From assembly GCF_000009905.1 (NCBI RefSeq), contig NC_006177.1, forward strand, positions 1,116,001 to 1,180,000: DNA of 64,000 nt, written 5' to 3'. Below the pieces are notes generated by a model. It worked only from the letters and a program-made list of their open reading frames with translations, ran no database searches and had not been told where the DNA came from. Each line of letters begins with the position of its first letter. Position 1 is the first letter of the stretch. The position numbers and the translations under genes are program-made. Shown here one piece after another: positions 1,169 through 18,728 of this stretch. Source of the stretch: Symbiobacterium thermophilum IAM 14863. Lineage in GTDB: Bacteria; Bacillota; Sulfobacillia; Symbiobacteriales; Symbiobacteriaceae.

Positions 1169-1348
1169 CTATCGGGACGTCTCCCCCGGGTGGTTGGCGT
1201 GGAAATGCTGGGTGACCGGGATCGTCCGGCGGACCTTGGTCATCCGCAGGTTCCCTTCCACCTTCTCCACGTCCACCGGGTTGTACCGCTGCCGGATCTC
1301 CCACTCGTCGATCTTCTGACGGACCTCGGGTGGCAGAATCTCGGACAT
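1169..1348 (-). CDS. Small hypothetical protein (59 aa)
   Basis: The gene encodes a soluble, charged 59-residue protein starting MSEILPPEVRQKI and ending NHPGETSR. The start at 1348 is chosen because GGGAGGTG lies eight bases upstream of its ATG; a longer reading to 1384 has no such site. No cysteine pair, membrane segment or known motif is visible. The composition (EILPPEVRQKIDEWEIRQRY) looks like a real small helical protein. It converges on modC and is monocistronic. No function can be given. Confidence 0.6.
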   Translation of the reverse strand: MSEILPPEVRQKIDEWEIRQRYNPVDVEKVEGNLRMTKVRRTIPVTQHFHANHPGETSR

Positions 1349-1526
1349 GGCTGGCACCTCCCAATAAGCGTGAGGCCACTCCATAGCTTGCCCCAGGGAC
1401 GCCCCCGGCCGCGAGCCGTATCGCGCAGACGGCGACCGGGGCGGACCGCTGCCCGCACAGGAACGGGCGGGCGGCTTGCCGAAGTCACTTCAATACTTAA
1501 TCTTTCGGGATAAGGAGCGAGCCGTC

Positions 1527-2714
1527 ATGGAGAGACCTGCACCCGTTCCCAGCGACCGCGCGGAGACCCTGGCCGCACACGCCGGCGACGACCCGTTCCG
1601 CTTCCTGGGCGCCGCCGCGCCGCCCATCTTCGAGACGTCGACGTTCGTGTTCCGCACCGTGGCCGACGCGCTCGCCGCCTTTGCAGACGAGCAGGAGCAT
1701 TACGTCTACACGCGGCGGCGGAACCCCACCGTCCGGGTGGTGGAGGAGAAACTGGCGGCCCTGGAGGGCGCGGCGGAATGCCGGCTGTTTGCCTCGGGGA
1801 TGGCGGCGATCTCGGCCGCGATCCTCTCCTGCGTGGGGGCCGGCGACCACGTGGTCTGTGTTGACACCGCGTACGGGCCGGCGCGCGCCTTCATCACCGG
1901 TTACCTGAGCCGCTTCGGCATATCGGCCACGCTGGTGGACGGGTGCGACCCTGCCGAGTGGGAGGCGGCGGTGCGACCCAACACGCGCCTCTTCTACCTG
2001 GAGTCGCCCTCCTCCGGGCTGATGAAGCTCCAGGACCTCGCGGCCGTGACCGCGCTGGCCCGCAGGCACGGCATCGCCACCATCTGCGATAACTCGTACG
2101 CCACCATGCTGCTTCAGCGGCCGCTGGAGCTGGGCGTCGACCTGGTGGTGTACTCGTGCAGCAAGTACTTCGGCGGCCACTCGGACGTGCTGGCCGGGGC
2201 CGTCCTGGGCCCCGCAGAGCGGATCCGGCGCATCGGCGACGCCGAACAGCCGCTGCTGGGCGGCGTGGTCGGCCCCTTCGAGGCGTGGCTGATCGGCCGC
2301 GGGCTGCGCACCCTGCCCCTCCGGCTGCGGCAGCACCAGCAGAGCGCAGGCCGGGTTGCCGAGTTCCTGGCCGGCCACCCGCGGGTCGCCCGGGTCCACT
2401 ACCCCGGCCATCCGTCGCACCCGCAGCACGGACTGGCCCTCCGGCAGATGCGGGGGGCGTCGGGCCTGCTCTCCTTCGAGCTGGACACCGGGGACCTGAA
2501 GCAGGTCAGCCGGTTCGTCGACGCCCTGCGGCTCTTCCGGCTGGGGGTCTCCTGGGGGGGCTACGAGTCCCTGGTGTGGCTGCCGGTCATCGGCGCGATG
2601 CACCGCGCGCCCGAGGAGCAGTGGCCGAACCCGGGGCTGGTCCGCATCCACGTCGGGCTGGAGGATGTGGACGATCTCCTCGAAGACCTCGACCGGGCCT
2701 TGCGGGCGCTGTAG
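1527..2714 (+). CDS. Cys/Met-metabolism PLP enzyme (cystathionine gamma-synthase/lyase family)
   Basis: This 395-residue enzyme belongs to the transsulfuration family of fold-type I PLP enzymes, which make or break C-S bonds in cystathionine, homocysteine or methionine. Family hallmarks are YTRRRNPT (phosphate and substrate binding, about residue 60), DNSYAT, and VVYSCSKYFGGHSDVLAG, where Lys213 (codon at 2163-2165) should carry the cofactor. Length matches the family norm of 380-400. The ATG at 1527 follows AAGGAG by about ten bases, whereas the frame extends further upstream without a site. Specific activity (gamma-synthase, beta-lyase or gamma-lyase) cannot be told from sequence alone. It stands alone, with no met or cys genes next to it and no recognisable SAM riboswitch upstream. 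Confidence 0.85.
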   Translation: MERPAPVPSDRAETLAAHAGDDPFRFLGAAAPPIFETSTFVFRTVADALAAFADEQEHYVYTRRRNPTVRVVEEKLAALEGAAECRLFASGMAAISAAILSCVGAGDHVVCVDTAYGPARAFITGYLSRFGISATLVDGCDPAEWEAAVRPNTRLFYLESPSSGLMKLQDLAAVTALARRHGIATICDNSYATMLLQRPLELGVDLVVYSCSKYFGGHSDVLAGAVLGPAERIRRIGDAEQPLLGGVVGPFEAWLIGRGLRTLPLRLRQHQQSAGRVAEFLAGHPRVARVHYPGHPSHPQHGLALRQMRGASGLLSFELDTGDLKQVSRFVDALRLFRLGVSWGGYESLVWLPVIGAMHRAPEEQWPNPGLVRIHVGLEDVDDLLEDLDRALRAL

Positions 2715-16115: not shown

Positions 16116-16436
16116 ATGAACGAGCTCCAGCTGCTCTTCCAGGCGCTGGCCTCGCTCCTGCCCGAGGCCATCTTGTCGCGGGTGCTCACCTACGCCGCCA
16201 TCACGGCGGCCCTGGTGGCCCTGCTCCGGCGCATCCCGTGGTTCGAGGCCCGCCGCCAGGTGGCCGCGCCCGTGGCCGCCGTCGTGCTCGGCCAGGGATT
16301 CGGCTGGCTGGCGGTGGGGTTCGATACGGCCCAGTGGGGCACCGCCGTCGGGGCGGGAGTGGTCATCGCCCTGGCCGCCGTCGGCGGGTACAGCGGCACC
16401 AAGAACGTGGCGCAGCATGTCCGCAAGGCTTCCTAG
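16116..16436 (+). CDS. Small holin-like membrane protein (106 aa)
   Basis: The protein has three to four hydrophobic stretches (LTYAAITAALVALL, VAAPVAAVVLGQGFGWLAVGF, AVGAGVVIALAAVGGYSG) and a basic tail (QHVRKAS). Size and layout resemble phage-type holins of Firmicutes, but no lysis enzyme or phage gene is nearby. The ATG follows GGGGGAGGGG by five bases. The gene abuts the broken phosphatase. Function unproven. Confidence 0.6.
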   Translation: MNELQLLFQALASLLPEAILSRVLTYAAITAALVALLRRIPWFEARRQVAAPVAAVVLGQGFGWLAVGFDTAQWGTAVGAGVVIALAAVGGYSGTKNVAQHVRKAS

Positions 16437-17003
16437 GCAACACGTCTACAGATCGGGTCACGGGTGCGTCCGGTCAACCGAAGCCCGGCACCCTTCCCAG
16501 TGGGATCTCGACCCGGAAGGCTGGCCGGCGCTTGAACGGCTGGCCGGCCTTCCGCACTGGGCCTCGGCCTGCCGGATCGTGAGCAGCACGGAGCTGAAGG
16601 CCGTCAGAACGGCGGAGTGCCTCGCCCGGCGGAACCGGCTTCCACCGCCGGAGGCCGTCAGCGCCCTGGGCGAGCGGCACAAGGGTTCCGTCGTGCCGAA
16701 CCATGCAGGGGTCGTCGTGAGGCTGTTCCGGTTTCCGAGCCAGCCGGCGGCGCAGGGGTGGGAGACCGTCCGCGCGGCGTTGGCCGCTTCGACCACGCGG
16801 TCACGGCGCTGGTGGAGGCCGCCCGGGGGCGGGACATCATCGTGGTCTCCCACGGCATCGTGCTGTCGCTCGTCCTGATCCGGCTCCGTGGGCAGGACCG
16901 GGTCGATCCGGCCGACTGGGCGCGGATCCGCATGCCGGACTGCCGCGTCGTGGACACCGACGCCATGCAGGTGGTGCAGCCCTTCGGGGCGTGGGGAGGG
17001 TGA
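16437..17003 (+). pseudogene. Histidine phosphatase (phosphoglycerate-mutase-like) pseudogene
   Basis: Two reading frames together give most of a histidine phosphatase. The first frame (to about 16785) reads HPSQWDLDPEGWPALERLAGL, then IVSSTELKAVRTAECLARR. The second, in a different frame, reads FDHAVTALVEAARGRDIIVVSHGIVLSLVLIRLRG, with the conserved second-histidine motif VSHG. The frames change near 16780-16790. The N-terminal RHG motif is also lost: the bases around 16448-16462 would give it only after small indels. No start or ribosome site is convincing. It is a decayed gene rather than a sequencing artefact if both lesions are real. Confidence 0.7.
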
Positions 17004-17210
17004 AACGCGGGCATGTCCCTCAGCTTGGGTCTTTACAACGATTAGGAGGAGGAGTTAGGATTTGTATATAGAAATCTAAATCTACCAATTTGTCGGTCGG
17101 GATTATTCAGGTGAACGCCTAACGGAGCGGTGCCCACCGACCCGCCCGGTGCCTGGAATCCCGAGTGCCGGGCCTCCGCGCGGCCCAGTGGGACCGGCGG
17201 AGGCGTGGCT
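17004..17210 (+). promoter_or_regulatory. AT-rich leader region before the TPR gene, with a possible 5-codon leader ORF
   Basis: The 207 bases between the pseudogene and the TPR gene include 17030-17115, which is much more AT-rich than its surroundings. It holds a strong Shine-Dalgarno (AGGAGGAGG, 17044-17052) that is not placed for the TPR gene. Nine bases later is TTG-TAT-ATA-GAA-ATC-TAA (17062-17079), a five-residue ORF. No clear -35/-10 pair is visible. The region may control the TPR/peptide pair. Confidence 0.35.
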
Positions 17211-18068
17211 GTGGGAAAGGAGGTGGAGGCGCTGTTCGAGGACGTCCACGTTCACGCGGAGCTGGCCCATGTGTTGCAGCAGGAAGGCCGGTGGGCCGAG
17301 GCCCTGCACCACGCGCGGCGAGTCGTCGCGCTGGCGCCCCGGGGCAGCGTGCTTCACCTCTGGGGCTACGCCAAGGCCGCGACCATCGCGGCGGACATGG
17401 GGCGCGGGCAGCTGGCGCATCGCTTCGCGACGGTCTACCTCGCCCTCGCCCGGGGGGCGTCCGGGGTGGAGCAGTACACGCCCTGGGTGCAGCAGGCCAT
17501 GGGGATCGCCTGTTACCAGCGCGGTCGCTTCCAGGAGGCCATCGCCTGGTACCGGCGGGCGGTGCAGGGCTTCGCCCGGTGCGGGCTCACGGAGCAGGTC
17601 GCCGTTGCCTCGTCGATGCTGGCCTTCAACCTGGCGCGCATCGGCCGGCCCCAGCGGGCCCGCGCCTGCCTGGCCGACCGCAGCGAGTTCCCGGAGAGCC
17701 GCTCCTACCTGTACGATTCTGCCATGACAGCGATCCACATGGCGGAAGGGGACCACGAGCTGGCGGTCAGCAGCGGCCGTCGGGCGCTGACGGCTTCCGG
17801 CAGGCGGTCCTTTGACTTCGCAGACGCGGCGGCAGTTGCCCTCCTCGTGTCCCGGGCCCTGCGGGCCCTGGGGGCGCGACGGGAGGCCACCGCCTTCATC
17901 CTCTCCGCCGCAAGGTTTGCGGTCCGGCAGCGATGGGAAGTGCTCGCGCCCCTGCTGCCAAACCGGGGCCAGAGAGGAGGTGACATGGCTCGTGAAGCGG
18001 CGGTCTCTCGTGGTCGCGGCAGTGCTCATCCTCGTGATGGGGCTAGCCTCTGCCCTGGGTGCGGATAG
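17211..18068 (+). CDS. TPR-repeat regulator-like protein overlapping a peptide gene
   Basis: The protein is about 285 residues and nearly all helical pairs in TPR style: AELAHVLQQEGRWAEALHHARRVV near residue 20, VQQAMGIACYQRGRFQEAIAWYRRAVQGF near residue 100, and further degenerate repeats such as FADAAAVALLVSRALRALGARREA. No helix-turn-helix domain is visible. It therefore resembles Rap-type peptide receptors more than PlcR or NprR, though it is shorter than the roughly 380-residue Rap proteins. GTG at 17211 is chosen because GGCGGAGG precedes it by seven bases; another GTG lies at 17205. Its last 77 bases overlap the start of the exported-peptide gene at 17992, which implies coupled expression. 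Role as a peptide sensor is inferred. Confidence 0.65.
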   Translation: MGKEVEALFEDVHVHAELAHVLQQEGRWAEALHHARRVVALAPRGSVLHLWGYAKAATIAADMGRGQLAHRFATVYLALARGASGVEQYTPWVQQAMGIACYQRGRFQEAIAWYRRAVQGFARCGLTEQVAVASSMLAFNLARIGRPQRARACLADRSEFPESRSYLYDSAMTAIHMAEGDHELAVSSGRRALTASGRRSFDFADAAAVALLVSRALRALGARREATAFILSAARFAVRQRWEVLAPLLPNRGQRGGDMAREAAVSRGRGSAHPRDGASLCPGCG

Positions 18069-18132
18069 GGCCATGGCCTGCAACGGTGGTAGCGGCGGGC
18101 CGCCACCGCCCCCCACCGGCAGCAAGTGCTAG
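17992..18132 (+). CDS. Small exported peptide precursor (46 aa), candidate signalling peptide
   Basis: Frame +1 encodes a basic start (VKRR), a hydrophobic stretch (SLVVAAVLILVMGLASALGA) and then DRAMA followed by CNGGSGGPPPPPTGSKC and a stop. This is a standard Sec signal peptide with possible cleavage after ALGA or after AMA. Cleavage after AMA would release a 17-mer with cysteine at each end and a five-proline core. GTG at 17992 has AGGAGGTGA upstream at 17976-17984, inside the TPR gene; a GTG at 17980 in the same frame is too close to the site. A size this small and overlap with a TPR gene match Phr-type pro-peptides. Maturation and activity are inferred. Confidence 0.6.
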   Translation: MKRRSLVVAAVLILVMGLASALGADRAMACNGGSGGPPPPPTGSKC

Positions 18133-18145
18133 TCGCTGGAAGGCG

Positions 18146-18175
18146 GGGTGCCGCAGGCCGTACCCTGCGGCACCC
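18146..18175 (+). terminator. Strong hairpin after the peptide gene
   Basis: GGGTGCCGCAGG at 18146-18157 pairs over 12 bases with CCTGCGGCACCC at 18164-18175. No U-tract follows, so it may end or attenuate transcription or protect the 3' end of the peptide message before the gene at 18216. Confidence 0.5.
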
Positions 18176-18215
18176 GCCGGCCACCCGCATCTGAAGCCAC
18201 GAAGGAGGTCGCCCG

Positions 18216-18728
18216 ATGATCAACGCGCTCACGCGTGAGCAAGTCGCCGGCCTGCGCCCGCCGGAGTTGCAGAGTTATGAGGAGCCTCTGTACGAGGTCG
18301 GCGTTCCCACGCTGGATCTGGAAAACCGCGTACCTCACCGCCGCCTCACCAGCATCGAAGCGGCGCAGCTCCAGGCGGCTTTCTGGCAGGCGGAACAGCA
18401 CTTCGGCAAGGAGTACGACGAAGTGTACCGCACCCTGGACGAGCTGAGGGAGCGCACGGAGGAGAGCGGCCCGCTCAACGAAGAATGGCGCCGGGCCATC
18501 GACGCGGCTTCCAACCTGCACTGGAACTTCGCCCGCGCCATCGGCGTCCTCGCCTTCCTCGCCGGACAGCGTGAGGGTTTCCGGCTGGGGGCCGCCGCCG
18601 TCACGCGCGGGGCGCAGGACCAGGCGATCGCGACGGCCTTGATCGGGGCGCTGGTGGACGACAAGCAGCTGGACCGGCTGATCGGGCAACTGGCCACGGG
18701 CCGGGAGGACCCGGAGTACATCGTCTGA
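18216..18728 (+). CDS. Hypothetical helical protein (170 aa)
   Basis: The protein is soluble and mostly helical (IEAAQLQAAFWQAEQHFGKEYDEVYRTLDELRERTEES, then HWNFARAIGVLAFLAGQREGFRLGAAAVTRGAQDQ). No signal peptide or recognised catalytic motif is seen. The ATG follows AAGGAGG by eight bases. It lies 84 bases downstream of the exported-peptide gene, past a strong hairpin, so it could be a third member of that unit. I do not recognise the family. Confidence 0.7.
   Translation: MINALTREQVAGLRPPELQSYEEPLYEVGVPTLDLENRVPHRRLTSIEAAQLQAAFWQAEQHFGKEYDEVYRTLDELRERTEESGPLNEEWRRAIDAASNLHWNFARAIGVLAFLAGQREGFRLGAAAVTRGAQDQAIATALIGALVDDKQLDRLIGQLATGREDPEYIV

Follow-up and report, generated by a model that had tools for sequence, protein, structure and literature searches.

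A candidate peptide-signalling cassette in Symbiobacterium thermophilum: a TPR-only protein gene overlapped by the gene of a small exported peptide

In the Rap-Phr cassettes of Bacillus, the gene of a TPR protein that has no HTH is followed by an overlapping frame for a small, Sec-exported precursor. The HTH-bearing RRNPP receptors (NprR, PlcR, Rgg/ComR, AimR, and Qsr/QssR of Clostridium) are likewise TPR proteins encoded beside exported pro-peptides in Bacillota (PMC10075063, PMC9765709), and an HTH-less TPR receptor candidate with a pro-peptide has been reported outside Bacillus as subfamily 17 of Anoxybacter fermentans (PMC12700828). The default screen for unannotated pro-peptides considers ATG starts from -60 to +400 bp (PMC10075063). 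Here we describe a gene pair in S. thermophilum that lies in a 64,000 nt stretch of DNA (the window), positions 1116001-1180000 of the single-contig, 3,566,135 bp genome (G000).

The first gene of the pair (17211..18068, plus strand) encodes a TPR-only protein of 285 aa, a candidate intracellular peptide receptor. Its reading frame is open over 17115-18068, and a GGAGG lies 7 nt 5' of the GTG at 17211. GTG 17205 is a further start candidate, as is, by homology, CTG 17232: the TTG start of the TPR homologues aligns with this CTG, which lies behind AAAGGAGG. This could put the true start some 7 codons downstream, and the uncertainty in the start is up to 9 codons. Pfam identified TPR families only (TPR_2, 1e-14; TPR_12, 2e-12), with no HTH domain in this protein or in its 42% identical paralogue, and no RNPP-type domains were detected in the window protein. 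No RRNPP receptor-family HMM matched it, the Pfam matches being to generic TPRs and the NCBIfam matches all far below cut-off, and a search for viral, phage and plasmid relatives found none. A sigma-70-like promoter match upstream (TTTACA-18-TAGGAT, 9/12; 17032..17061, plus strand) is weak evidence of a promoter, and Rfam elements, including riboswitches, were absent from the locus except for a tRNA. The remains of a histidine phosphatase gene, split into two frames, occupy 16417-17003; the gene is intact in a relative (L112, 4694-5257), where it stands immediately 5' of the TPR gene.

An AlphaFold model of the single chain, built from a six-sequence alignment (pLDDT 82), has 12 helices that form six TPRs in a superhelix, in agreement with a sequence-only reading of this stretch that had described 17211-18068 as encoding a helical TPR protein without an HTH. 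The model was disordered over the C-terminal 35 residues, most of which are encoded by the overlap with the second gene or by bases next to it. Foldseek and VIA-align grouped the model with peptide-binding TPR superhelices: TONSOKU (Z 20.6), RapH (18.9), LGN (18.7), Rap-CSF (18.7) and NprR-NprX (18.2), with the RapH, RapF and RapI matches at Z 17-19. The modelled fold fits a peptide receptor, and does not single out RRNPP. As the model aligned to RapH over 128-369 only, the Rap three-helix bundle has no counterpart in the window protein.

The second gene (17992..18132, plus strand; 46 codons, GTG start) has a ribosome-binding site of its own, AGGAGGTGA, at 17975..17983, and encodes the predicted exported pro-peptide MKRRSLVVAAVLILVMGLASALGADRAMA followed by CNGGSGGPPPPPTGSKC. 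An alternative GTG start at 17980 (50 aa) is possible, but falls within the ribosome site. The predicted signal peptide of 29 aa (17992..18078; heuristic score 3.97) has KRR, 11 or more hydrophobic residues and an A-x-A at DRAMA/C, where the slash marks the predicted cleavage site; the signal-peptide call was made by script and by eye and not by SignalP. The predicted mature peptide, CNGGSGGPPPPPTGSKC (18079..18129), is a 17-mer with a Cys at each end. The two frames share exactly 77 nt (17992..18068), in which the TPR frame encodes its disordered tail (pLDDT ~31, residues 250-285). The overlap, the separate ribosome site and the 46-residue precursor with a signal peptide had all been claimed from the sequence-only reading, and all were confirmed. 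Just 3' of the peptide stop is a strong GC hairpin without a T-run (18142..18178, plus strand; -37.6 kcal/mol, z -4.0), which probably marks the end of a two-gene unit, such that the TPR and peptide genes look like one unit.

The window genome has one close TPR paralogue (42% identity; G000:2761884, locus 2). Its TPR 3' end is likewise overlapped by an exported small ORF, with the predicted mature peptide CNGGNGNGGPPPSGSRC, and the core of the mature peptide is conserved between the paralogues despite the 42% identity of their TPR proteins. The hairpin recurs at locus 2 and at its orthologue. Both loci are present in a congener MAG, apparently JAMNXV01 (G002), in which locus 2 is intact, with the peptide CNGGNGNGGPPPSESGC, and locus 1 has an open TPR gene (79% identical) and a peptide gene that is broken in its signal sequence by a mobile element. 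This interrupted orthologue of the window peptide gene (L112, 6054-6296), split by a multi-copy insertion sequence that has 8 copies in the window genome and is found in 12 places in another congener (G001), is a natural case of a signal-less receptor. In another genus, apparently JAQBPS01 (G003), two TPR relatives (26-31% identity) overlap the peptide frames MPRRLLLVALLVIGALVSSAFLAEA/GPGGGGGPTPTTVFPAPTT and LRKRLLTVVLLVLSVVVFGALSANA/GPGGGSGPNPTATPTPTK. Altogether, homologous exported-peptide frames overlapped the TPR gene at the matching position in 6 of 6 family members from three genomes of two genera, by 68-77 nt. The sequence-only reading had named loss of the small frame in relatives that keep the TPR gene as evidence against it; the frame is kept in every such relative, the one copy broken by the insertion sequence included. 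At the level of sequence, these comparisons show one overlapping unit, conserved as such, that encodes a superhelical TPR protein together with the precursor of a small exported peptide. The TPR family is absent from G001, where a strict scan of the sampled TPR loci gave no pairs, and this absence, together with the destroyed peptide gene beside an open receptor gene in G002, indicates that the cassette is dispensable.

No conserved partner gene was found near the loci. A 170-aa ORF 3' of the window pair (18216-18728) had no Pfam match above cut-off and an 80-aa ORF downstream at locus 2 had no Pfam match whatever; of unequal length and without likeness by eye, these ORFs gave no sign of a downstream partner common to both loci. 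The 80-aa protein (L004, 4450-4692, plus strand) is retained in G002. A divergent HTH_17 protein 5' of locus 2 (L004, 2999-3223, minus strand) was not seen there.

Spurious ORFs are abundant in high-GC DNA, and the small ORF could on that account be a chance frame inside and after the TPR gene. The strict scan bears on this reading: it called a signal-like ORF of 28-110 aa with a ribosome site and a start at -100 to +70 of the stop, and found none beside 271 control long ORFs (400 kb of G000 and G004), against the 6 of 6 family members above. (The control scan's greedy ORF picking omits the window gene, which was scored separately.) The conserved mature core and the third-position bias described below also speak against a chance frame, a reading that is already contradicted and to which we attach next to no probability.

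The same scan of 60 TPR loci, most picked by TPR_12 and a few by weak peptide matches, found 8 credible pairs, all in G003 and G004 (L095, L098, L099, L101, L103, L106, L109 and L118; Pfam TPRs in all). Counting sampled loci and controls, 8/60 against 0/271 gives p=8e-7. Matches on the plus strand of L095 and at L117 were discarded by eye as not credible. The exported ORFs paired with these more distant TPR genes are unrelated in sequence, and some again have two Cys (ACDDNGGGPGLVGC; ACGGTTMPC...). At L106, two adjacent TPR genes have peptides that share IGGVGVKS. In G004 (L106 and L095), two divergent TPR/exported-peptide pairs whose peptides share this sequence adjoin a threonine aldolase gene, and G003 has one pair in the same place by its threonine aldolase gene. 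A subtilisin-like (S8) protease gene lies 3' of the pair at L109 (3270-4199) and is possibly that of a maturation protease.

Selection was assessed by comparing locus 2 of two Symbiobacterium genomes, a small data set of about 22 codons. Outside the overlap, the peptide gene had 10 substitutions, 7 of them at third positions, with 3 amino acid changes against 6.7 expected (P=0.006). All 4 substitutions in the CNGGNGNGGPPPS core were synonymous (P=0.004). By this comparison, the part of the locus-2 peptide gene outside the overlap is under purifying selection, a point on which the sequence-only reading had staked its proposal. Within the overlap, amino acid changes were not depleted in either frame (4 observed, 3.8 expected), and nucleotide identity was 91% against 79% in the remainder of the TPR gene.

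The last of these figures is relevant to another possible source of a signal. Enterococcus sex pheromones derive from signal peptides, and a pheromone might similarly be cut from the signal peptide of the window precursor itself and not from its Cys-bracketed tail; the signal sequence is indeed the best-conserved nucleotide stretch at locus 2. However, dual coding is expected to give such identity in the overlap, and amino acid changes were depleted in the tail core and not in the overlap, such that we consider a pheromone of this kind very improbable.

Based on the recurrence of the pairing in relatives far above chance, we think it probable that the TPR gene and the peptide gene form a two-gene cassette for cell-to-cell peptide signalling that works like Rap-Phr. 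The precursor would be exported via Sec and cleaved by signal peptidase I after DRAMA, and the resulting Gly/Pro peptide of 17 residues, bracketed by Cys, would accumulate outside, either whole or as a fragment. Uptake may be by an Opp-type ABC importer; the window genome encodes 12-13 OppA-type binding proteins. The imported peptide would then bind the concave TPR groove and alter the receptor's hold on a putative protein partner. As it contains neither a DNA-binding nor an enzymatic domain, the receptor should act, like Rap, through protein-protein interaction. The layout, the export signal, the conservation of the mature core, the constancy of the TPR partner beside diverse peptides, the tandem units in precursors of relatives and the many OppA-type proteins are consistent with an exported pro-peptide that is sensed inside the cell by a TPR receptor. 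Counting against this reading are the non-specific structural match, a 17-mer with two Cys in place of a short linear pheromone, the lack of a conserved partner gene, the dispensability of the cassette and the small data set on selection.

Several of these observations also favour the signalling cassette over an envelope or surface micro-protein, that is, a disulphide- or lipid-anchored Gly/Pro peptide for which the TPR protein would be a cytosolic helper or a regulator of synthesis, with no signalling back into the cell. In favour of such a micro-protein, the mature region begins with Cys after AMA, ASA or VSA, the conserved pair of Cys points to a stable fold outside the cell, and there is a weak match of the peptide to the NCBIfam invert_tail domain (E 0.0026, below cut-off). 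With respect to a lipobox ([LVI][ASTVI][GAS]C), VSAC of G002 fits, but AMAC of the window and ASAC of the paralogue do not; charged residues immediately precede the Cys in the window copy and the G003 homologues have no Cys at the cleavage site (ANA/GPGG and AEA/GPGG). In the wider set, a constant TPR partner stands beside peptides that have no sequence relation to one another, as in ligand-receptor pairs, and the tandem units in relatives' precursors also argue against an envelope role, which we regard as unlikely. The Gly-rich, Cys-bracketed peptide might also be like a bacteriocin or a RiPP, with the TPR protein serving in its regulation, immunity or maturation, and a remote TPR relative (L008) weakly matched RiPP-associated TPR models (FxSxx_TPR, 6e-7; HaaT, 1e-5; far below cut-offs). 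Against this, the leader is a Sec signal peptide and not a RiPP leader, and the neighbouring genes read at the window locus and at locus 2 include no modification enzyme or dedicated exporter, leaving a peptide of this type improbable.

Relatives elsewhere in the class suggest a link of TPR/peptide pairs to c-di-GMP. A search with the TPR protein of G008, a distant homologue, matched the window TPR protein at 1.6e-7 and a TPR protein of G026 at 7.7e-7. In both genomes the start of the exported-peptide gene overlaps the stop of a TPR-only gene, and a c-di-GMP-I-GGC riboswitch lies directly upstream (L008 in G008, 1190-2330, minus strand; L190 in G026, 1152-2321). The G008 precursor has three GVYDPPPPR-type units, and tandem peptide units are a known format of RRNPP pro-peptides (PMC11343458). 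In other genomes of the class or phylum, a TPR-HD-GYP gene is followed by an exported peptide gene (L118, L130, L158, L161, L162, L165 and L192), and seven TPR-HD-GYP/peptide operons have a c-di-GMP-I riboswitch upstream. Several of their peptides share the C-terminal core G-P-[IMV]-[IV]-x4-aromatic (GPMVSDFVF, GPMVSDFVW, GPIIRGGGF), of which GAMVSDWVW is a variant, and the G019 peptide (L162) has GPIIGDALY three times. These may be peptide-to-c-di-GMP signalling operons, a type for which nothing was found in the literature searched.

The c-di-GMP riboswitch occurs in 135 of 154 genomes of the class, and 30 loci chosen by the c-di-GMP-I-GGC riboswitch alone gave no further pairs above the score threshold. 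The riboswitch by itself is thus no marker, and its association lies with the TPR operons, as a description that carries no significance figure. At L091 (1235-1672; G008 C33:77034-77471), a c-di-GMP-I-GGC riboswitch is followed by an exported peptide of ~82 aa with VVGPIYQAQ, close to a TPR match on the opposite strand. At L160 (G005), a frame past the stop of a TPR-HD gene has ...RPIIRDGGF without a signal peptide and seems to be a degraded version of the peptide-encoding gene that is intact in G006 (SGPIIRGGGF).

We speculate, tentatively and short of favouring the idea, that the window pair belongs, as one branch, to a family of intracellular TPR peptide receptors that has not been described, spans the lineage and is independent of the known RRNPP subfamilies. 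Other branches would be tied to c-di-GMP, with TPR or TPR-HD-GYP proteins and exported pro-peptides that have a conserved or tandem C-terminal core, encoded behind c-di-GMP riboswitches, and in Symbiobacterium the receptor would bind a 17-mer bracketed by Cys and possibly closed by a disulphide. S. thermophilum depends on a partner bacterium, which makes a secreted signal ecologically interesting. If the signalling interpretation is correct, quorum sensing by intracellular detection of peptides would reach into a high-GC, deep-branching lineage of Bacillota that published RRNPP screens at default settings would miss; the GTG start and the 77-nt overlap would hide the window peptide gene from such a screen. 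Symbiobacterium does not appear in the main text of PMC10075063 or PMC9765709, whose supplements might list it. The relatives in which one operon combines a c-di-GMP riboswitch, a domain of the c-di-GMP phosphodiesterase type and putative peptide sensing would join two signalling fields.

How closely the window pair resembles the described systems can be judged feature by feature. With 285 aa and six TPRs, the protein falls within the 250-500 aa, TPR-containing range of RRNPP/RRNPPA receptors, and the adjacent 46-aa precursor, with its Sec signal features, within the 10-100 aa range of their pro-peptides. Its TPR superhelix matches RapH, RapF and RapI, but it is shorter than Rap, as had been noted from the sequence alone: Rap has nine TPRs and a three-helix bundle (PMC9765709), and the Rap HMM did not match the window protein. 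The window precursor is set apart from Phr by its 17-mer tail with Cys at the termini and its 77-nt overlap, and RRNPP pheromones are short and linear, unlike a 17-mer with two cysteines. Receptors of the NprR/PlcR/Rgg/PrgX/AimR type have an N-terminal HTH, whereas the window protein has none, and subfamily 17 differs in its clan B, nine-TPR fold. Membership of the Rap or HTH-type RRNPP groups is not supported, given the lack of an HTH, of the Rap bundle and of a family HMM match, and six TPRs in place of nine. The proposal of an RRNPP-like or convergent system thus has partial support: such a system is consistent with the layout, the export signal and the TPR fold, a fold that LGN and TONSOKU match equally.
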